Source: an uncultured Chlorobiaceae bacterium
Lineage (GTDB): Bacteria; Bacteroidota; Chlorobiia; Chlorobiales; Chlorobiaceae
Direction of reading: 5' to 3'
Length of the DNA stretch: 64,000 bases
NCBI GenBank assembly: GCA_903843305.1
Contig: CAIMPI010000016.1
Location: 1-64,000 of the forward strand
Part shown: positions 46,734 to 56,226 of the stretch, piece after piece
How the letters are laid out: every line of letters starts with the position of its first letter
How positions within the stretch are numbered: position 1 is the first letter of the stretch
Made by a program: the position numbers and the translations under genes
The notes under the pieces: model-generated
Told to the model about the DNA's origin: nothing
What the model saw: the letters and a program-made list of their open reading frames with translations, nothing else
Databases searched by the model: none

Positions 46734-47978
46734 TCAGTTCCCGCAACAAAACAAATGCTCAACCTCCGAACATTCTTGCTCGCTTAATCCAATTCGTCTG
46801 GCACGAACTTTCCACTCTTTCACCACCTTACAGACATCATTGACAATTCGTCCAGCACGCGCACTATCCATCCGGTAATATCCAGCAGTCGCCATTGCCA
46901 CATGAAAATCCGGCTGGCGATTATAGAGATCAAGTGACAATACATGCTCGGCTTTCCTGAAAGAGGGGTTCATGTCGAAAGCAGGTGCAAGTCGCCAGCC
47001 TGCAGGATTGCGGATGAAGCCGTGATTGCGCAGATGGTCATCGCGGTTGGCTGTGGCAATGTTGAACACCACTCTGGTGAACAGCTCTTCGAGGTCACGG
47101 GTGATGTGGTCAGCTTCGCCGTAGGTTGAAAGAAATTCTGCCAGCTCCAGATAACTGGCATCGTCGCTGTCAGTATGGTGAAGCATGGTCATAGCTGAGG
47201 CAAAAAAACGGCGTTGATTTCTGGTTCGGTCAAATCGCTTTACCAGAAAGGTGTGGTAGCCTTTACCAATCTGCATGAGGCGAGCTTCGGGAACGGTAAT
47301 ATGGCATTGCTGTGCCAGTTCATGCAGCAGTTTTTCCCAGAGGGCAACATCGTAGTCATCATCGGCTGAGGGGAATTTGGCAATCCAGAGAGCGCCATCT
47401 TCATCAACCAGATTTGCCTTGGGGCGAGCGCCGCCAAGTGACGATCCGGGGGCGACAAGAACTTTCAGCCACTCTTTGATTTTACCGAGGTCATTCTGCT
47501 TTTTTCTGGTCAACTCAAAAGCCACCTCCTGTAATTCAGCAATTCTTGCCACCGGTGGAGCGGATAACGCCTCGTTGGCCAGATAGAGCGATTTGCCGGG
47601 GCGGCTGAAGCGAAGTGCGCCCATCCGCGTGCAGTCCTGAACTCCCAACAGAAAATCCCAGGGGCCAAGAGCTCTTGGTGTACGTTCCTCCTCTTTTGCC
47701 TCAATCGCCTCCCTCCGTTTCATCAGGAGTTGGCCCCAACGATCGGGACATGAATCCATGAAGACTCCAAAGTTGGAGCCTCCCGGAAAGAAATCGCCTG
47801 CGGAAAGATCAAGCTCTGGATCAAGTGGAAATGCGTTGACCTGCTTGAGCCAAGCTGGTTCATAAACAAAACGGACTGTACCCCGAGTCCCACGGGAGAG
47901 TGTGCCTATCTGTTGAAGAGGCCCGAATGCCGGGTCGTCAATCCACACCCAGAGCTGCTCCTCTTCACGCTTCGCCAT
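46734..47978 (-). CDS. hipA: HipA-family kinase (complete, two-gene system)
   Basis: 414 residues from ATG 47978, preceded by AGGAG; the 28 upstream codons lie inside hipB. The N-terminal domain is WVWIDDPAFGPLQQIGTL ... FGVFMDSCPDRWG, the Gly-rich loop SSLGGARPKANLVDEDGALWIAKFPS, the catalytic block TANRDDHLRNHGFI and the metal block LAPAFDMNPS. These are the HipA (COG3550-type) motifs. It follows hipB with a 14-base overlap, so the pair is translationally coupled. A decayed copy of the same pair lies at 55998-56221. Confidence 0.88.
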   Translation of the reverse strand: MAKREEEQLWVWIDDPAFGPLQQIGTLSRGTRGTVRFVYEPAWLKQVNAFPLDPELDLSAGDFFPGGSNFGVFMDSCPDRWGQLLMKRREAIEAKEEERTPRALGPWDFLLGVQDCTRMGALRFSRPGKSLYLANEALSAPPVARIAELQEVAFELTRKKQNDLGKIKEWLKVLVAPGSSLGGARPKANLVDEDGALWIAKFPSADDDYDVALWEKLLHELAQQCHITVPEARLMQIGKGYHTFLVKRFDRTRNQRRFFASAMTMLHHTDSDDASYLELAEFLSTYGEADHITRDLEELFTRVVFNIATANRDDHLRNHGFIRNPAGWRLAPAFDMNPSFRKAEHVLSLDLYNRQPDFHVAMATAGYYRMDSARAGRIVNDVCKVVKEWKVRARRIGLSEQECSEVEHLFCCGN

Positions 47979-48309
47979 CACTCGCTCCTGCTGGTGCTTT
48001 TTTGCGCGGTGCTCTTCTCCGCTGGGGAAGTGATTCATCCTGCAGGCGACGGCCCAGAGCATCCTCTTTGGCGATCAACGACAACTCTCCAAGCAACCCA
48101 AGAACGCGAAGCACCTGAACGTAGAAGCCGATAGCAACCGACGGGTCACCGGTCTCAATTTTATAGAGCGTAGGACGTGAAAGATTTGCCCTGGCACAGA
48201 CTGTCTCCATGGAAAAACGGCGACGAAGCCTCGCATCTCGGAGACGTTGCCCCAGAGCCTCCATCTCTTTTGCCGAAGCGGGGTATAGTGGTGTGGCTCT
48301 GCTTGTCAT
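47965..48309 (-). CDS. hipB: HipB-type XRE regulator
   Basis: 114 residues from ATG 48309, with AAAGG upstream; an earlier in-frame ATG at 48330 lies in the TATAAT box and is unlikely to be used. The HTH is LGQRLRDARLRRRFSMETVCARANLSRPTLYKIETGDPSVAIGFYVQVLRVLGLL. A basic tail (RRLQDESLPQRRRAPRKKAPAGA) follows. It overlaps hipA by 14 bases. The function, repression of the operon and neutralising HipA, is inferred from gene order. Confidence 0.85.
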   Translation of the reverse strand: MTSRATPLYPASAKEMEALGQRLRDARLRRRFSMETVCARANLSRPTLYKIETGDPSVAIGFYVQVLRVLGLLGELSLIAKEDALGRRLQDESLPQRRRAPRKKAPAGASDGEA

Positions 48310-48339
48310 AACGATAACCTTTGTTTGCATTATAACAAG
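48302..48339 (-). promoter_or_regulatory. hipBA promoter with inverted-repeat operator
   Basis: TATAAT on the minus strand at 48329-48334 is a good -10 box about 20 bases before the hipB ATG. It lies within a 10-bp inverted repeat with one mismatch: plus-strand CTTGTCATAA at 48302-48311 and TTATAACAAG at 48330-48339, 18 bases apart. The repeat thus spans the start codon and the -10 box and is the natural HipB operator candidate. Further GTTATA half-sites occur just upstream. Confidence 0.55.
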
Positions 48340-48458
48340 AATTTGTGAATTATCATTGCGGTTATAGCTTGTGAAAATGAGCTGGGGTTGTTAATGTTCA
48401 ACAGGCAACTCTTTGCTGAATCCCGGGCTCTCTACGCCACCGTTTTATTATTATCCTG

Positions 48459-49052
48459 ATGCTGACCCGTGTTGACAAGCCAGCCCTGATGAAGCGGCTC
48501 TTTGAACTTGGCTGCGGTTATTCTGGCCAGATTCTCTCCTATACAAAAATTCTTGGCCAATTGCAGGACGCAGGTAACACAACAACACTTGCCCACTATC
48601 TGCGTCTGCTCGATACCGCCGGGTTACTCTACGGTCTGGAAAAGTACAGCCCTGAAATGGTGCGGTGTAGAGCGTCCATCCCGAAATTTCAGGTGCATAA
48701 AACCGCTCTCATCAGTGCACAGCAGCAACACTCTTCTCAGGAGATTGCTGCTAATCCTTCCAAGTGGGGACGATGGGTTGAGTCGGCAATTGGTGCCTGT
48801 CTCCTCAATCATACCCGCACCGATGCCATGAACCTGTTTTACTGGCGAGAGGGAAACCATGAGGTGGATTTTGTTCTGGAGCACAAGGGAAAGGTGATCG
48901 GCCTTGAAATCAAAAGTGGCCACACCGGGCACGCTTCCGGCATGGCTGCATTTGAGCAACAGTGCAAGCCGTACAAGGTTCTACTGATCGGAAATTCGGG
49001 GATTCCATGGCAGGAGTTTCTTGAACTGGAACCTTTGGAGCTGTTTGCGTGA
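48459..49052 (+). pseudogene. C-terminal fragment of a DUF4143 AAA+ ATPase
   Basis: 197 codons that match the second half of DUF4143 proteins: LTRVDKPALMKRLFELGCGYSGQILSYTKILGQLQDAGNTTTLAHYLRLLDTAGLLYGLEKYS, then GRWVESAIGACLLNH and FYWREGNHEVDFVLEHKGKVIGLEIKSG, which is the PD-(D/E)xK-like end. The AAA+ ATPase half with Walker A and B is missing; the family is normally about 380-450 residues. The break lies at about 48458. Probably a dead remnant, though the fragment still has an ATG and a clean stop. Confidence 0.75.
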
Positions 49053-49217
49053 AGGGAGGCAACTCGCTCAGGGCATACTCCCGTTATATTATTTTATAAA
49101 AAGGAAATATGCAGGAGATGTGATTGATGCCGTCATTCACTTTGTATCAAGATGCCAAGGCGGTTGGTCATGCTCATTTGGCTATACGATTCCCTTTACC
49201 TGTCATCAACAGTCGTT

Positions 49218-49523
49218 ATGAACAAGGAAAAACATAGGGAACTTGAGGCTTCCGGGTGGAAGATCGGAAGCGTTGATGAATTCCTGGAACTCAGTCAGGA
49301 AGAGACAGAATTCATAGAATTAAAACTCTCTTTGAGCCAGAACCTTAAAGAGCGCCGTCAGTCGCTCCGGTTGACTCAGAAAGATTTTGCAAGAATGATC
49401 CATTCAAGCCAGTCCCGCGTTGCAAAAATGGAAGCTGGCGATCCTGCCGTATCGATTGATCTGCTTGTAAAATGCCCGTTCGTACCTGATGCACGTGGGG
49501 AACCTCGACTGGAAAAAGATTAA
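49218..49523 (+). pseudogene. HigA-like XRE regulator with scrambled C-terminus
   Basis: From ATG 49218: MNKEKHRELEASGWKIGSVDEFL ... LKERRQSLRLTQKDFARMIHSSQSRVAKMEAGDPAVSIDLLVK, the standard N-terminal and HTH part of HigA-type antitoxins. After residue about 80 the frame runs into sequence that belongs, in another frame, to the downstream methyltransferase fragment (CPFVPDARGEPRLEKD), so the last helix is lost. No toxin gene is recognisable next to it. The junction is near 49470-49488. Confidence 0.7.
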
Positions 49524-49860
49524 CCCCGACATTTTCGGCTCAATGATTCAGGCTGTAGCCGATGATGAGGAGCGTGGTGCCCTGGGGATGCACTACACCA
49601 GCGTACCAAACATTTTGAAAGTGTTAAACCCGCTTTTTCTTGATGATGTACGGGGACAACTGAAAGAAGCAGGCGACAACGCAAGAATGTTGCTCAACCT
49701 GCGCAAGCGCCTATCGAAAATCAGGGTTTTTGACCCTGCCTGCGGTTCAGGTAATTTTCTTGTTATTGCCTACAAGGAGTTGCGGGCTATTGAAGCTGAA
49801 ATCAATCGGCTGCGAGGTGAGGCAGCAGAACAGTCTGTAATCGTAGGAGGCAATGTATAG
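49489..49860 (+). pseudogene. fragment of an N6-adenine DNA methyltransferase
   Basis: About 123 codons: HVGNLDWKKINPDIFGSMIQAVADDEERGALGMHYTSVPNILKVLNPLFLDDVRGQL, then the SAM-binding motif I VFDPACGSGNFLVIAYKELRAIEAEINRLRGEA. This is the middle of the large class I DNA methyltransferases (usually 900 or more residues) of type IIL/MmeI-like or three-gene restriction systems. Both ends are missing: the 5' part is replaced by the HigA-like remnant, and the catalytic NPPY half is lost at about 49840, beside the Nmad block. It cannot methylate on its own. Confidence 0.78.
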
Positions 49861-49878
49861 GTTTCATATTCTTGGATA

Positions 49879-50739
49879 TCATGCTTGAGAGTGATTCGTA
49901 ATCAGATCACAAGCCCAAGAAATAGCTTCCGGGTATTCTTGGCTATCAATTATAAATTCCTGTCCTCTTGAGGCTGCCTTTAATTTTGTTCGATTACCAT
50001 GCAAGTTCCAACTTCGCTGTAAATTTGGGTGGAATGTGAGGGGCTTACGAGATTCGCCAGGATAGAACCAACCAGGGAGTTCCCAATCTGTTACTTTATC
50101 TGCATCCTGTGCAGTCAATTGCAGTTCTGATGAGTACCGGGGTAGAACACCGGCTCCTGGAACGTCTTTCAATATTATGCCATTTATTTCCAATTGTGGT
50201 TTTGCAATGTAAACCACATTATTCGGCTCATCACTACGGAAGTGGGGATGATATTCTGCCCATTTATAGCCATCAGGTTTATTGATTCCCAAATGCAAGA
50301 CTTTATCGACCTGCATCCATCCCCATATAACATGGCGTGGCTTGGATTTGGGAACTCTTGTATAGACACCTTCCCGCTCTTCGATATTCTGGAACAGGCC
50401 AAAAAATAGAAAGAGATCACCCGTTGAAATATCATTGTTATGGAGATGCCCTTGAGCAGCCCCTGACTGACCGAAAATAGGACGCCATCCATCCTCACGT
50501 GATTGAAGGCTCTCCTTTACAAGATCAGGGTCAAGATGGGCATGGGATTTAATTTTGGACGCGAGCTGCTCAATAAGAGGCCCGAGTGATTTGCCATTAT
50601 AGAAAATGTCCACATACTTTGTTCCAGACTTTATGTTATCAGGAATAGGCAGTGACAACATACGACCATCAGGAAAGATTGGGCTTGGTACACCTCCAGC
50701 AGCGGAGTCAAATCCTTTTCTACTCAGAATCAATTTCAT
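49879..50739 (-). CDS. Nmad3-like protein (nucleotide modification-associated domain 3)
   Basis: 286 residues from ATG 50739, which has GGAGG five bases upstream; ATG 50757 would add six codons. The opening MKLILSRKGFDSAAGGVPSPIFPDGRMLSLPIPD is what I recall for the Nmad3 family, predicted by comparative genomics to act with DNA base-modification or restriction systems. No catalytic residues are established for the family. Other features are the HLHNNDISTGDLFLFFGLFQ and YPGESRKPLTFHPN blocks. It lies 32 bases downstream of the Nmad2 gene in the same direction. Biochemical role unknown. Confidence 0.72.
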   Translation of the reverse strand: MKLILSRKGFDSAAGGVPSPIFPDGRMLSLPIPDNIKSGTKYVDIFYNGKSLGPLIEQLASKIKSHAHLDPDLVKESLQSREDGWRPIFGQSGAAQGHLHNNDISTGDLFLFFGLFQNIEEREGVYTRVPKSKPRHVIWGWMQVDKVLHLGINKPDGYKWAEYHPHFRSDEPNNVVYIAKPQLEINGIILKDVPGAGVLPRYSSELQLTAQDADKVTDWELPGWFYPGESRKPLTFHPNLQRSWNLHGNRTKLKAASRGQEFIIDSQEYPEAISWACDLITNHSQA

Positions 50740-50771
50740 TCTTCCTCCTGTTTCCATGAATTATCAGTTAC

Positions 50772-51344
50772 TTACCATTTTGTTGGATGGCAATTGACTC
50801 CCTGTGGTTTTGCGGCTATGAATTCCAGAAAGCAATTGATGGTTTCTGGTGAGAAGGCGTTTCTGTGTCCACGACCAACCTTTAAGCCACTCAAACTTTC
50901 CGGTAACTCCGGGCCGGATGCTCCGAAGTAGTGAAAGGTTTTTCCGACAAGAACACGAACTCCATTCAAGTCCCACTTTTTGACTCCCAAGTTCTCTTGT
51001 TTTCCATCAGAATGCTGCGACAGCAATTGCTCGTAAGTTCCATCAGGCAATGGCTTGTAAATATTATCTCCACGTTTGTAGACTTTACCCGTCGTGTAAT
51101 CTGGTCTCTTGTTAACGAACCGCTCATCATTGTAGTATTCTGAGTAGCTCTTCAGAATCTCATCAACCTGCATCGCGTAAATGACCTTATTCCCTTTGGC
51201 TTTGGGACTCAACCCAACAATCCAGTCACCTTCATCTATTGTTCGTCGAATCGCTGGCTTGCAGCAAGCCAGTGTACAATATCCAAAAAATGGATTTGGC
51301 GAGAAGCCGGAATCAATGGCGACAATGTATGAATACAGCTTCAT
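50772..51344 (-). CDS. Nmad2-like protein (nucleotide modification-associated domain 2)
   Basis: 190 residues, beginning MKLYSYIVAIDSGFSPNPFFGYCTLACCKPAIRRTIDEGDWIVGLS, the N-terminal signature I recall for Nmad2, which is often found paired with Nmad3. Further features: VIYAMQVDEILKSYSEYYNDERF and GKTFHYFGASGPELPE. No membrane or signal segment. The pair is apparently co-transcribed leftward, and divergent from a lipoprotein gene. The family is linked to DNA base modification only by gene neighbourhood, so the function is a prediction. Confidence 0.72.
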   Translation of the reverse strand: MKLYSYIVAIDSGFSPNPFFGYCTLACCKPAIRRTIDEGDWIVGLSPKAKGNKVIYAMQVDEILKSYSEYYNDERFVNKRPDYTTGKVYKRGDNIYKPLPDGTYEQLLSQHSDGKQENLGVKKWDLNGVRVLVGKTFHYFGASGPELPESLSGLKVGRGHRNAFSPETINCFLEFIAAKPQGVNCHPTKW

Positions 51345-51610
51345 CTGCTATCCGTGAATAGACTTTTTGGGAACGGGGGTGTACATTGTCAATGTACGAT
51401 GATAATTGTGATTCTTAATTGCTAAAAGGCTTGTCAGAGAAAAAACAGAAATGACTTCTTTGAGCTCATAGTGAACAGTATATGGTGATAACCTATTTTT
51501 AAAAAATGTCTTAGTGGTAACGCCATTCCTTTGCAAAACATGGGAAAAAGACCTTTTATTCGTGAAATGAATTATGTTTGCAGTAAGCCAAAATTAAAAA
51601 ATTTCTGGAA
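51345..51610. promoter_or_regulatory. AT-rich divergent promoter region, Nmad2 and lipoprotein
   Basis: 266 bases without a convincing gene, markedly AT-rich compared with its flanks. It must contain the leftward promoter of the Nmad2-Nmad3 pair and the rightward promoter of the lipoprotein gene. I see no clear palindromic operator. Confidence 0.4.
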
Positions 51611-52333
51611 ATGAAAAAGACAATCATTACAATTTCCTTGTTTTCTTTATTCGGCTGCAATCCCCAATCGACTTCTGCCTTGGCAACAGTCAAAGAGAAA
51701 ATCATCGCGTTAGTAAAGAAACCTACACACTCAACCTCAGGGATGTCTCAAGAGGAGTACAGAGAAAATGCAAGATTATGGGCGATCAAAGATGATAACG
51801 TGGTGGCTGCTCGGAAGCACATTGAAGAAGCCGTAAAACTACGTTTAAAATCGCCTAAGCATGCAATTTTTGAGCCAGGAGCTAAAGCAATTAGGGTAGA
51901 TAAAGGAGAAATCGAAACAGGGCAGTGGTGTTTTGAGACTGGAAGTAAGTCACTGAATTGGTACTTGCTCAATATGTTGAGCCGCTACGTAGAAGAGGTT
52001 AACCGATTGAATGCACCTCCTCCCCCACCTCCGACCCCAAAGCAACACCCATCTGGTGATGTAGTTCCATCAGAAGAGGAACCACCGTGGGCCGCAGAGG
52101 ATCGTGAAACAGAATATCGCCAACTGATAGATCGAAACTCATGGCTTGAGCCATTGTTAGGTTTGCTGGAAGGGGTCGAGGGTGGTAAGGTAGAACTACA
52201 CTATTATGCGATTGAGTCTTACGTTGACACGGTAAATCAGTATGCAACAGATATTCGTATGAAATACACTGGGTACTATATCTTTAACCCATACTCAGGG
52301 GGATCAGACGTAGGCATTGCAGAGATAAATTAA
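51611..52333 (+). CDS. hypothetical lipoprotein with a proline run
   Basis: 240 residues. The signal peptide MKKTIITISLFSLFGCNPQ has a lipobox with Cys16. After it come a helical, charged region (ENARLWAIKDDNVVAARKHIEEAVKLRLKSPKHAIF), a proline-rich linker (about residues 135-145, seven or more prolines) and a C-terminal region ending YNPYSGGSDV-like (FNPYSGGSDVGIAEIN). I do not recognise the family. It sits between the Nmad2 gene and the truncated helicase in the accessory region and may be cargo of the same insertion. Confidence 0.6.
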   Translation: MKKTIITISLFSLFGCNPQSTSALATVKEKIIALVKKPTHSTSGMSQEEYRENARLWAIKDDNVVAARKHIEEAVKLRLKSPKHAIFEPGAKAIRVDKGEIETGQWCFETGSKSLNWYLLNMLSRYVEEVNRLNAPPPPPPTPKQHPSGDVVPSEEEPPWAAEDRETEYRQLIDRNSWLEPLLGLLEGVEGGKVELHYYAIESYVDTVNQYATDIRMKYTGYYIFNPYSGGSDVGIAEIN

Positions 52334-52394
52334 CAGAAGATTGCTCACAATCTGTGGTTCTGAAATACAGAAGACTTCACATTTCTCATGAAGG

Positions 52395-54287
52395 ATGTGG
52401 AAGTCGTTTATCGCCCTGGACAAGCTGCACAATCAACATATTAAAAAAGCTGTTATTGTTGTGCAAGAACGGTCGATTGGCGCAAGCTTCATTGATGAGC
52501 CTTTAAACAAGTTTGGTTTCTGGGCAGATTGGATAGTTGCTCCGCAATGGAATCTCTGTAATGCGCCGGGGGATGATAACGGTGGCAAGGTTAACGCCGT
52601 CAAAAGTTTTCTGGAGAGTCAGGATCGCATTCTGGTTTGCACCCATGCCACGTTCCGGTTTGCTGTTGATCGTTTTGGCGTGGAGGCTTTTGATGACTGC
52701 CTGATTGCTGTAGATGAATTTCATCACGTCAGCGCCAATCCCGATAACAGACTTGGTGCGCATCTTGGCACGTTTATAGCCCGGAACAAGGTTCACATTG
52801 TCGCCATGACCGGCTCCTATTTCCGTGGCGATGCCGAAGCTGTTCTGGCACCACAGGATGAATCGAAGTTTGAGACGGTAACTTACACCTACTACGAGCA
52901 ACTGAACGGCTATCAGTATCTGAAACAACTCGATATTGGTTACTATTTTTACTCCGGCTCTTATCTGGACGAAATAATGGATGTCCTCGATACCGACCAA
53001 AAAACCATTATTCATATCCCGAATGTCAATTCAAGGGAAAGCACACAACGCGGAAAGATCACTGAGGTGAGTGAGATAATGGGTGCTGTTGGAACTTGGA
53101 AAGGGAAAGACCCGGTCACCGGTTTCGACTGTGTTCAGAGAGCCGATGGCCATATCCTGAAAATTGCTGATTTGGTGGATGATGGCCCGGAGCGGCACTC
53201 GAAAGTGCTCAACGCTTTGAAAGACCCCTCTCAAAAGAATAACCGCGACCATGTGGACATCATCATCGCGCTTGGGATGGCTAAAGAGGGGTTTGATTGG
53301 ATTTGGTGTGAACATGCTCTCACGGTTGGTTATCGTTCAAGCCTGACGGAGATCATCCAGATTATTGGCCGAGCTACACGTGATGCCATAGGGAAAACCC
53401 GCACCCGCTTTACCAACCTGATTGCTGAACCTGACGCATCAGCGGAGTCGGTGACTGATGCCGTGAATGATACTTTGAAGGCAATAGCGGCAAGCCTGCT
53501 GATGGAACAGGTGCTTGCTCCCAAGTTTAACTTCACTCCCAAGAACAGCAATAACGGGCCGGTGGAAGGATTTGATTACGGTGAAAGTGGTTATGATCCG
53601 GCTAAAGAAAATGTTGGTTTTAATGCGCAAACCGGACAGCTCCAGATAGAGATAAAGGGCTTGGTTGAGCCAAAAAGCAAAGAGGCGGTTCGCATTTGCC
53701 TGGAAGATTTAAATGAGGTGATTACCTCTTTTGTGCAGGATAAAACAGCACTTGAGCGAGGGCTTTTTGATTCGGAAGTAGTGGCCGAAGAGTTGACCCA
53801 ATTGCGCATGGGTAAAATCGTGAAAGATAAATACCCTGAACTGGATGCGGAAGATCAGGAAGCTGTAAGGCAACACGCCATCACCGCGCTGAACCTCACC
53901 CAGCAGGCGAAGAAGATTATCAATGCAAGCGATAACCTGCAGCCAGGTGGTAACACTGCCCTGATTGACGGGGTTCGCAAATTTGCGATGGATGTTCGTG
54001 ATCTTGATATTGACCTGATTGACCGCATCAATCCATTTGGAGAGGCATACGCAATTCTTGCCAAAGCGATGAATGAGGAGAGTCTTAAACAGGTGGCTTC
54101 GGTGATTGCCGGTAAGAAAGTAAATCTATCACTGGATGAAGCACGTGAACTGGTTATGCGGGCTCTGAAATTCAAACAGGAACGCGGAAGATTGCCCTCT
54201 TTAACTGCTCAAGACCCTTGGGAAAAGAGAATGGCTGAAGGTGTCGCTTTCCTGCAAAAAAAGACAGCGGAGGCCAAGAATGGCTGA
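52395..54287 (+). pseudogene. DEAD-like helicase lacking its Walker A segment
   Basis: 630 codons open from ATG 52395 (MWKSFIALDKL), matching a helicase of GIY-YIG-linked restriction-like systems from just after motif I. Present: motif Ia region AVIVVQERSIGASF, motif II AVDEFHHVS, motif III AMTGSYF, motif VI IIQIIGRATRDA, and a long C-terminal helical region. Missing: the N-terminal P-loop, without which such a helicase cannot hydrolyse ATP. The rest is intact over 1.8 kb, which suggests a recent or still-selected truncation. It overlaps the GIY-YIG gene by 8 bases. Confidence 0.7.
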
Positions 54288-55473
54288 AATGAGTGATAAA
54301 GAGCTTCTCAAAGCTCTTGGGGTTGAAGCAAAGGTAGAAGCCAAATCAGCCAGAACAGCTCGTGAAGAGAGGATTATTGCTGGCTTTGAGGATATCGAGC
54401 GTTTTTTTGAGCAACAGGGTCGCCTCCCTGCTCATGGTGAGGATAAAGAGATATTTGAACGGCTCTATTCCGTCCGGCTTGATAAAATCCGTGCATCTGA
54501 GGAGTGCAGGAACGCTCTGACCGGTCTTGATAAACATGGTTTGCTGCAAGGTCAACCCGTCAAAAACGACACCTCTTCTGAAGCATTGGATGATGAGGCA
54601 TTGCTTGCTCAACTTGGCGTTCTGAATGCATCCGAAAATGATATCACCAATCTGACACATGTCAGAACACGCACTGAAATCAGAGCGGCAGAGGAGATAG
54701 CAAAGCGCACTCAATGTCTGGATTTCGATACGTTCAAACCGCTGTTTACCCAGGTGCAAGATGAGTTGAAATCGGGTGTCCGCAAGTCACGCGAGTTCAA
54801 GGATTATGCTCAAATCCGGCAAGGTGAGTTTTTCATCCTCGGTGGGCAGAAGGTTTATGTCGCTGAAATGGGGGATGAGTTCATCAATGTTTATGAGAGA
54901 ACGGATCGAAGACTTCGGGTTATTTATGACAATGGAACCGAAAGCGATATTCTGCTGCGCTCTTTGCAAAGGGCTCTGCAAAAAGACTTAGCTGGTCGGC
55001 GAATTAGTGAGCCTTCAGAAGGGCCGCTTTTCTCTGGTGTAGTTGAAGATGGTGATTGCGCAAGCGGTACCATCTATGTTCTCCGCAGTAAATCAGATCA
55101 TCCCTTGATTCAGGAGCACAGGGATGTTATTCACAAGATTGGCGTGACGGGTGGCGATATTGAAAAACGTATTGCCAACGCAAAACTTGACCCTACGTTT
55201 CTCATGGCGGATGTGGAAGTTGTTGCGACTTACGAGCTTTCAAACATCAACCGTACAAAACTGGAAAATTTGATTCACCGATTTTTTGAGCCAGCAAAAC
55301 TCGATATGCAGCTCAAAGATCGTTTCGGCAACCCGGTTGTGCCACGCGAGTGGTTCCTGGTGCCGCTCTTTATCATCGATGAAGTTGTTGAAAAGATCAG
55401 AGATGGTTCAATTGTAAACTTCTGTTATGATCCGGGTTCAGGGCGATTGGTGGAATGCCATTCGGGGGATTGA
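54280..55473 (+). CDS. GIY-YIG nuclease (T5orf172/MUG113-like) protein
   Basis: 397 residues from ATG 54280, with GGAGG seven bases upstream, overlapping the helicase stop. The C-terminal domain is a GIY-YIG nuclease: GTIYVLRSKSDHP (GIY part), IHKIGVTGGDIEKRIANAK (YIG part with the conserved Arg) and KLENLIHRFFEPAKLD (metal-binding Glu). The N-terminal 220 residues are helical with repeated LLxxLGV motifs and are not recognised. It appears complete and is the only intact member of the presumed methyltransferase-helicase-nuclease set. Confidence 0.82.
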   Translation: MAEMSDKELLKALGVEAKVEAKSARTAREERIIAGFEDIERFFEQQGRLPAHGEDKEIFERLYSVRLDKIRASEECRNALTGLDKHGLLQGQPVKNDTSSEALDDEALLAQLGVLNASENDITNLTHVRTRTEIRAAEEIAKRTQCLDFDTFKPLFTQVQDELKSGVRKSREFKDYAQIRQGEFFILGGQKVYVAEMGDEFINVYERTDRRLRVIYDNGTESDILLRSLQRALQKDLAGRRISEPSEGPLFSGVVEDGDCASGTIYVLRSKSDHPLIQEHRDVIHKIGVTGGDIEKRIANAKLDPTFLMADVEVVATYELSNINRTKLENLIHRFFEPAKLDMQLKDRFGNPVVPREWFLVPLFIIDEVVEKIRDGSIVNFCYDPGSGRLVECHSGD

Positions 55474-55537
55474 TTTAAACCCAAGTTCGCCGTTATCGTA
55501 AAGAGCATGCCGCCCGGTATGGTAACGATCCCAATCG

Positions 55538-55693
55538 AATTGTAGAGGCTTCGAGAAAATAGAGATTTCCCTGAACTCCACTTTTACTGTTGCTATTGGT
55601 GATAATGGAATTGGCAAGACACAGGAAAAGACAGGCAGGATTTTCTTTTCTGCTTTTTCAGCAGTAAGTGTATTTTACAACTATTTTCTATAA
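55538..55693 (+). pseudogene. N-terminal stub of a RecF/SMC-like AAA ATPase
   Basis: The frame from 55538 reads NCRGFEKIEISLNSTFTVAIGDNGIGKT, a typical start of RecF/OLD-like ATPases, with Walker A GDNGIGKT. It then diverges and stops at TAA 55691-55693. Nothing of Walker B or the rest of the protein follows. A remnant of a further defence-type ATPase, cut right after its P-loop. Confidence 0.65.
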
Positions 55694-55717: not shown

Positions 55718-55972
55718 ATGGCAAAATTAGGTACAGAAAAAAATCCGGCAATAGTACATGTTCAGGATTTAGATCGGGCGAATGAAGTTGCTGAAATATT
55801 TGAACAATATGACTGGAAGTATATCATTGGATTGGAACCGGAAAAACCGGAGAATGTATCAGACCTCGTAGCACTGCTTAACCCGCCACTGCCCGTCAGT
55901 TCACCCAAAACAGGTCGCAACGAGTCCTGCCCTTGCGGAAGCGGTATTAAATTTAAAAACTGCTGTGGATGA
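55718..55972 (+). CDS. small SEC-C zinc-motif protein (PBPRA1643-like)
   Basis: 84 residues. The N-terminal part GTEKNPAIVHVQDLDRANEVAEIFEQYDWKYIIGLEPEKPENVSDLVALLNPP is the family-specific domain, and the C-terminus GRNESCPCGSGIKFKNCCG is the SEC-C zinc-binding tail (C-x-C-x8-CC). I recall this as a stand-alone SWIM/SEC-C protein family. The function is unknown, and it seems intact although it lies between two remnants. Confidence 0.75.
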   Translation: MAKLGTEKNPAIVHVQDLDRANEVAEIFEQYDWKYIIGLEPEKPENVSDLVALLNPPLPVSSPKTGRNESCPCGSGIKFKNCCG

Positions 55973-55997: not shown

Positions 55998-56221
55998 ATG
56001 TTGCAATCGCTACCTGAAAATCAGGTTGACGGTTATAGAGATAAAGTGACAATACGTGCCCCAAATGCCGGGTCGTCAACCAATACCCAGAGCTGTTCCG
56101 CTTCACGCTTCGCCATCACTCGCTCCTGCTGGCGCTTTTCCGCTGGGGAAGCGATTCGACCTGCAGGCGGCGGCCCAGAGGATGCTCTTTGCCGATCAAC
56201 GACAAATCTCCCAAGAGCCCA
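55998..56221 (-). pseudogene. scar of a second hipB-hipA pair with a 1-kb internal deletion
   Basis: Two blocks match the intact pair. Block B (about 56063-56221) corresponds to about 47925-48100: the end of hipB (KEDALGRRLQ) and the first residues of hipA (AKREAEQLWV-VDDPAFG). Block A (about 56001-56060) corresponds to about 46902-46957: hipA C-terminal residues HVLSLYLYNRQPDFQVAIAT. They are joined at about 56060, so about 980 bases of hipA are missing, and block B also lacks about 15 bases. Divergence between the copies is visible, so this is an old paralogous or related insertion. Confidence 0.82.
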
Positions 56222-56226
56222 ATTAT

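Follow-up and report, generated by a model that had tools for sequence, protein, structure and literature searches.

The DnmA-YeeB-YeeC operon consists of an MmeI-type methyltransferase, a superfamily II helicase and a T5orf172/GIY-YIG protein in conserved order. In Bacillus subtilis it was judged to be a nonfunctional restriction relic whose methyltransferase survives (PMC9973331; DnmA also in PMC7261158), and its homologues in Vibrio crassostreae influence phage sensitivity (PMC9973331). Stand-alone EVE proteins were described by Bell and colleagues as partners of a COG1743-DUF499-SNF2/PLDc operon, with no mention of Nmad (PMC7641849), and in the available part of a 2026 paper NMAD domains stand among tested and predicted defence systems with the NMAD family left unspecified (PMC13092281). 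Here we analysed positions 1-64000 (the window) of contig C16 (216 kb) from a Chlorobium-type genome of 2.59 Mb. In the variable site between yfhO and rpsL, we found the remains of a DnmA-YeeB-YeeC operon with an Nmad2-Nmad3 gene pair standing in the gap. The locus is very probably a decaying defence island with a broken operon and an orphan Nmad pair, rather than a new working combination.

By gene order and domains, the broken operon is DnmA(YeeA)-YeeB-YeeC, a known family. Domains and order agree with the operons of B. subtilis and V. crassostreae; unlike those, the window has only an internal fragment of the methyltransferase, a helicase without Walker A, and foreign genes in the gap.

When bacterial and archaeal genomes were scanned once for the helicase, at least 575 relatives were obtained, and the nearest among the matches listed, at 97% protein identity, was L018 from a Chlorobiaceae metagenome-assembled genome (MAG). 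The earlier note on this DNA had proposed looking for an intact version of the locus in relatives, and L018 is one: its operon encodes a 968-residue methyltransferase with all five MmeI domains (N, spacer, MTase, target-recognition and C), a 282-residue protein, a 685-residue helicase and the GIY-YIG protein, with HipA/HipB upstream. The GIY-YIG gene was downstream of the helicase in 80 of 80 relatives and the methyltransferase upstream in most. The 282-residue protein (L018 6979-7827), located between dnmA and yeeB and without Pfam family, is additional compared with the B. subtilis and V. crassostreae operons, and the spacing in many other relatives leaves no room for it.

Through the sequence comparison, three collinear DNA stretches were found between the window and L018: 46734-48364 (91%), 49467-49825 (93%) and 52406-55459 (92.4%, gap-free), and the protein identity of the window pieces was 91-97%. 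Between these stretches 1.59 kb and 2.64 kb of L018 DNA are absent, and window positions 49826-52405 stand where the intact operon has about 2.64 kb. The breakpoints could be mapped to within a few bases. Because an intact 3-kb relative is collinear at 92.4% DNA identity and gap-free on the helicase/GIY-YIG side, the breaks are far beyond chance.

The DnmA remnant is an internal fragment (49467-49825, plus strand) corresponding to about residues 312-430 of 968; in all, the window keeps residues 312-435 of the protein. Its frame (49489-49860) holds motif I, FDPACGSGNF, and matches positions 1-58 of 259 of the MmeI_Mtase profile (E=1e-22). The earlier note had the methyltransferase cut after motif I at about 49840, and homology to the intact gene indeed stops at 49825; a third cut, at the 5′ end of the gene, was overlooked there. 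The N-terminal domain, catalytic motif IV and the target-recognition domain are all missing, and the five-domain complement of the operon's methyltransferase is thus incomplete.

The YeeB-type helicase (52395-54287, plus strand) lacks residues 1-59 of its L018 counterpart; homology begins at 52406, with 97% identity to L018 from residue 5. The earlier note had the helicase resuming just past a missing Walker A at about 52390, which the relatives bear out. In all 79 with readable upstream sequence the lost stretch ends in the Walker A SPPASGKSRALM, absent in the window, and the residues preceding the point where the window homology starts read ...LLIKSPPASGKSRALM or nearly so, with Walker A at their end. 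The YeeC-type protein (54241-55473, plus strand; T5orf172 and MUG113) is nearly complete, 94% identical to L018 with its last few residues altered at the 55459 junction, and its T5orf172/GIY-YIG domain gene lies directly downstream of YeeB as in the operon elsewhere.

The 5′ methyltransferase junction (about 49467) falls in a shared GTAAAAT microhomology. At the helicase junction lies a YeeC-like patch (52370-52408, plus strand), which reads EDFTFLMKDVEVV, resembles TFLMADVEVV of YeeC and forms a 30-nt direct repeat with 55195-55224 (87%). Its position exactly at the junction suggests that the recombination involved a divergent yeeC. Microhomology and patch together are consistent with illegitimate recombination.

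A second wrecked copy of the operon was observed in L013 (G026:C112, 1610-8056), where dnmA is broken about 17-20 bases past the window break and joined to the GIY-YIG 3′ end; on the same contig an Nmad3 fragment is joined to a yfhO fragment. These L013 joins may be real or may be errors of MAG assembly. In addition, the operon is followed in both L018 (11226-14423) and L013 (3342-6539) by a candidate for another defence unit, with a gene of the GmrSD_N domain, an AAA ATPase and a 288-residue protein.

What is left of the operon should no longer function, because its methyltransferase has neither motif IV nor target domain and its helicase cannot be expected to bind ATP normally. The ratio of nonsynonymous to synonymous substitution rates (dN/dS) against L018 was 0.043 for the helicase, 0.10 for the GIY-YIG protein and 0.035 for the methyltransferase piece, and the window and L018 branches had similar shares of the changes. 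We considered whether the conserved state of the truncated helicase speaks for function and rejected this: the methyltransferase fragment, which is certainly dead, is conserved to the same degree, and the branch counts are alike. Since this dead piece is as constrained as the rest, the open frames here say nothing about their use. The simplest reading of such equal conservation would be that the breakage was recent.

The earlier note had raised an undescribed working combination. In such a hybrid defence the Nmad pair, as a two-protein PUA-fold reader, would sense modified phage DNA and steer YeeC, the GIY-YIG nuclease, while the truncated YeeB would serve as an ATP-independent scaffold. Nmad2 and Nmad3 are intact, YeeC is nearly complete, and GIY-YIG nucleases tied to modification sensors are known, both in CMoRE (PD-T4-3; PMC12923530) and in EVE-GIY-YIG fusions (PMC7641849); PD-T4-3 was also the second Foldseek match of Nmad2, a weak one. 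However, CMoRE, a modification-dependent endonuclease, is a single protein likened to Nmad2 by a weak fold match, whereas the sensor-like and nuclease genes of the window are separate. The Nmad pair and YeeB/YeeC lie on opposite strands with no common operon, YeeB has no Walker A, and the conservation of YeeB and YeeC is uninformative for the reason given above. Among the genomes searched the arrangement occurred in no second one, and YeeC is normally accompanied by a full YeeB. A working hybrid is unlikely also because no intact DnmA or YeeB was found elsewhere in the genome, and most genes around the operon remnant in the yfhO-rpsL site are fragments. We therefore give this explanation hardly any credence.

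The Nmad genes, in contrast to the operon remnant, are whole. As the earlier note had it, the pair is intact and on the opposite strand, with Pfam matches above the curated cut-offs: Nmad3 (49879-50757, minus strand) matches PF18754 over profile positions 1-247 of 247 (E=2.5e-73), and Nmad2 (50772-51344, minus strand) matches PF18753 over positions 3-196 of 200 (E=5.4e-55, 186.5 bits). They belong to a cassette (49867-51474, minus strand) that is present at 93% DNA identity in two other Chlorobium genomes (L011 and L012), and in both of them it ends at identical bases on both sides. In these two genomes the pair travels alone.

Its neighbours elsewhere are effector-like genes. In L011 and L109 the pair plus a PIN gene is flanked by DUF499 and a PLD-SNF2 helicase, and in L012 a PLD-SNF2 helicase adjoins the pair. 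This arrangement resembles the predicted COG1743-DUF499-SWI2/SNF2-PLDc-EVE system (PMC7641849), but Nmad2-Nmad3 replaces EVE, a PIN gene is added, and the COG1743 methyltransferase was not seen in the L011, L012 and L109 stretches. The window pair differs further in having no adjoining effector: PLD-SNF2 and DUF499 are absent around it, and a search of the window genome for the PLD-SNF2 partner gave only weak SNF2-level matches. Other Nmad genes adjoin type I restriction genes (L014 and L115) or a DEAD/MZB helicase (L015). Phage records yielded neither Nmad2 nor Nmad3.

An Nmad2 cassette was also observed on plasmids L169-L177 of Alphaproteobacteria and Betaproteobacteria, where a TIR-domain gene lies upstream and Nmad2 is accompanied by a MazG-family pyrophosphohydrolase and a uracil-DNA glycosylase (UDG); a variant form occurs on plasmids of Cyanobacteria and Bacteroidota. 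These cassettes, whose domains are named in the available part of PMC13092281, have the Nmad2 family in common with the window, where the partner of Nmad2 is instead Nmad3 and neighbours of the MazG, UDG or TIR kind are absent.

Whether Nmad2 and Nmad3 have a PUA/EVE fold was set as a test before the structural models existed. AlphaFold models were built from the window proteins and viral-contig relatives (predicted local distance difference test scores 75 and 78). By VIA-align, the nine top matches of the Nmad3 model, at Z 5.3-9.0, were either structures of the EVE/DUF55 type or the EVE-like domain at the N-terminus of McrB; an ASC1 domain came next. For the Nmad2 model, all 50 listed matches were YTH or ASCH domains (Z 7.2-8.0), many of them repeats of one protein, and its top Foldseek rows were mostly of the PUA superfamily. 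A PUA-like fold is thus likely for both proteins. Links at the level of sequence profiles (Nmad3-EVE, Nmad2-EVE and Nmad2-Nmad3) were rejected, the hhalign scores being within or barely above those of shuffled controls; the EVE set included two wrongly framed sequences, a minor flaw. A search of PDB sequences with both Nmad profiles returned nothing credible.

Since the best matches are in the PUA superfamily (EVE for Nmad3, YTH/ASCH for Nmad2), we read the pair as a displaced sensor of modified DNA. Folds and gene context together make a role in reading modified bases rather more probable than other roles, with sequence profiles giving no confirmation, and the neighbours of Nmad genes in other genomes are consistent with a sensor. 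The earlier note had linked the genes to nucleotide modification, and recognising modified bases is now favoured over making them. If they were base-modifying enzymes, they would mark the host's own DNA for a restriction activity, as might be suggested by the family name and by the nucleotide-processing genes, MazG and UDG among them, that are associated with the family. The predicted folds match binding domains (EVE, YTH and ASCH) and not transferases, and the neighbours elsewhere are effectors (PLD-SNF2, type I restriction and TIR proteins); an enzymatic role is accordingly improbable.

Several points weigh against reading the locus as a decayed island with a displaced sensor. The structural Z scores of 5-9 count as middling on the tool's own scale, neither Nmad model had a significant match by Foldseek alone, and the profile-profile comparison with EVE was not significant. 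Both Nmad genes are intact and the 5′ region is conserved to 51474, so they are possibly expressed and useful, and the dN/dS of Nmad3 against L011 is 0.27. The junctions are known from assembled sequence alone, and a chimeric assembly there would be a counter-point.

If the locus were such a chimera of unrelated pieces, its abrupt junctions would be accounted for, and similar abrupt joins occur in metagenome-derived relatives such as L013. But the contig is 216 kb long, the genome is 99.94% complete with 0.16% contamination, both flanks of the block are collinear with another Chlorobium genome (G081), and the microhomology and short patch repeat at the junctions suit illegitimate recombination. 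We regard an assembly chimera as very improbable.

The intact genes and their conserved upstream DNA speak for another possibility, that the Nmad pair functions and is selected by itself (as an orphan sensor or toxin-like pair) and the broken operon was merely its landing place. Adjacent Nmad2/Nmad3 genes recur in either order in L113, L115 and L125, and Nmad2 occurs also in the plasmid TIR-Nmad2-MazG-UDG cassettes. On the other hand, three of the five close copies in Chlorobium are broken, with wrecked Nmad genes in G018, G026 and G088, the Nmad2 dN/dS of 0.60 suggests weak constraint, and the PLD-SNF2 partner is absent in the window genome. A selected stand-alone pair is thus unlikely, yet it is the alternative we would take most seriously.

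The earlier note had also counted a lipoprotein as part of the insert. This open reading frame (51611-52333, plus strand) has a plausible lipobox-like N-terminus (LFGC) and no family match. No relatives were found in 394 genomes of the phylum, in plasmids, in phages or in a pattern-based scan of viral contigs; among the genomes of a draw equal in size to the 394-genome set, six further ones from Chlorobium had an Nmad3 match. A promoter and terminator scan around it gave no excess over shuffles. In the other genomes searched the lipoprotein does not accompany Nmad2-Nmad3; it is absent beside the pairs of L011 and L012, and it was rejected as a module member. Because it is absent from that cassette and has no relatives in the sets searched, the insert consists of at least two pieces. 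Of the history proposed earlier, the loss of the middle of a restriction-like operon and the presence of other DNA in the gap stand; the insertion of one Nmad2-Nmad3-lipoprotein module does not, the pair being alone in L011 and L012. As to what the earlier note had named as counting against its proposal, one relative does have full-length partner genes, and Nmad genes elsewhere are not accompanied by the lipoprotein, while the identical arrangement was found in no relative.

On the favoured explanation of a decaying island, a DnmA-YeeB-YeeC operon, as still intact in the close relative, would have stood at the variable yfhO-rpsL site of a Chlorobium genome. The beginning of dnmA was lost, as was all the DNA between a point just past dnmA motif I and one just past the yeeB Walker A, and two unrelated pieces, the Nmad2-Nmad3 pair and the lipoprotein-like ORFan, would have entered or adjoined the gap. 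Nmad2 and Nmad3 may act together as a PUA-superfamily reader of two proteins, binding the modified bases of foreign DNA, with the PLD-SNF2 helicase-nuclease and DUF499 gene of other Chlorobium genomes as its putative effector. Having lost this effector, the window pair is probably an orphan sensor that is itself being lost.

The whole locus is bordered by the end of yfhO (46686) and the start of rpsL (56573). The site contains, in order, HipA/HipB, half of a DUF4143 ATPase, an HTH gene, the methyltransferase piece, Nmad3, Nmad2, the lipoprotein-like frame, the shortened helicase, the GIY-YIG protein and a SEC-C protein. The HipA-family kinase gene (46734-48062, minus strand) is 92% identical in protein to L018 hipA, occurs beside yfhO also in G081, and perhaps starts near 48038 by comparison with L018; the HipB-like antitoxin (47965-48330, minus strand) matches couple_hipB and is 93% identical to L018. 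Only the 3′ half of the AAA+/DUF4143 gene is present (48459-49052, plus strand), matching residues 199-393 of 395 of the PDC-S01 model. The HTH antitoxin-like gene (49152-49490, plus strand; HTH_3) is cut at its 3′ end, where at the GTAAAAT junction it runs into the methyltransferase remnant in a different frame. The SEC-C motif protein (55718-55972, plus strand; TIGR04102) is found also in G081, where the site has no island. A hipA/hipB-derived remnant (56000-56222, plus strand) at the island's far end is a direct repeat of 46888-46947 and 47922-48101, and such repeats at both ends could have served as a recombination substrate.

Counted from gene positions, the yfhO-rpsL gap is below 2 kb in 24 Chlorobium genomes and 3-16 kb in eight, including the window genome. 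As read from sequences without profile searches, its fillings vary between genomes and include TIR proteins, AAA proteins and a biosynthetic cluster. In G081 (L135) the same site has HipA/HipB and SEC-C, with 0.93 kb replacing window 48366-55620 and the block absent. The site is a variable insertion site across Chlorobium, with defence-type or other genes in G080, G003, G030, G027, G085, G081 and G076.

The locus illustrates how a defence island at one fixed place in the chromosome decays as DNA is captured and deleted. Should Nmad2 and Nmad3 prove to be readers with a PUA fold, they may be the modified-base sensors of predicted DUF499-SNF2/PLD, type I and TIR-MazG-UDG systems, as EVE is elsewhere, which would give a testable function to two families so far named just "nucleotide modification associated".

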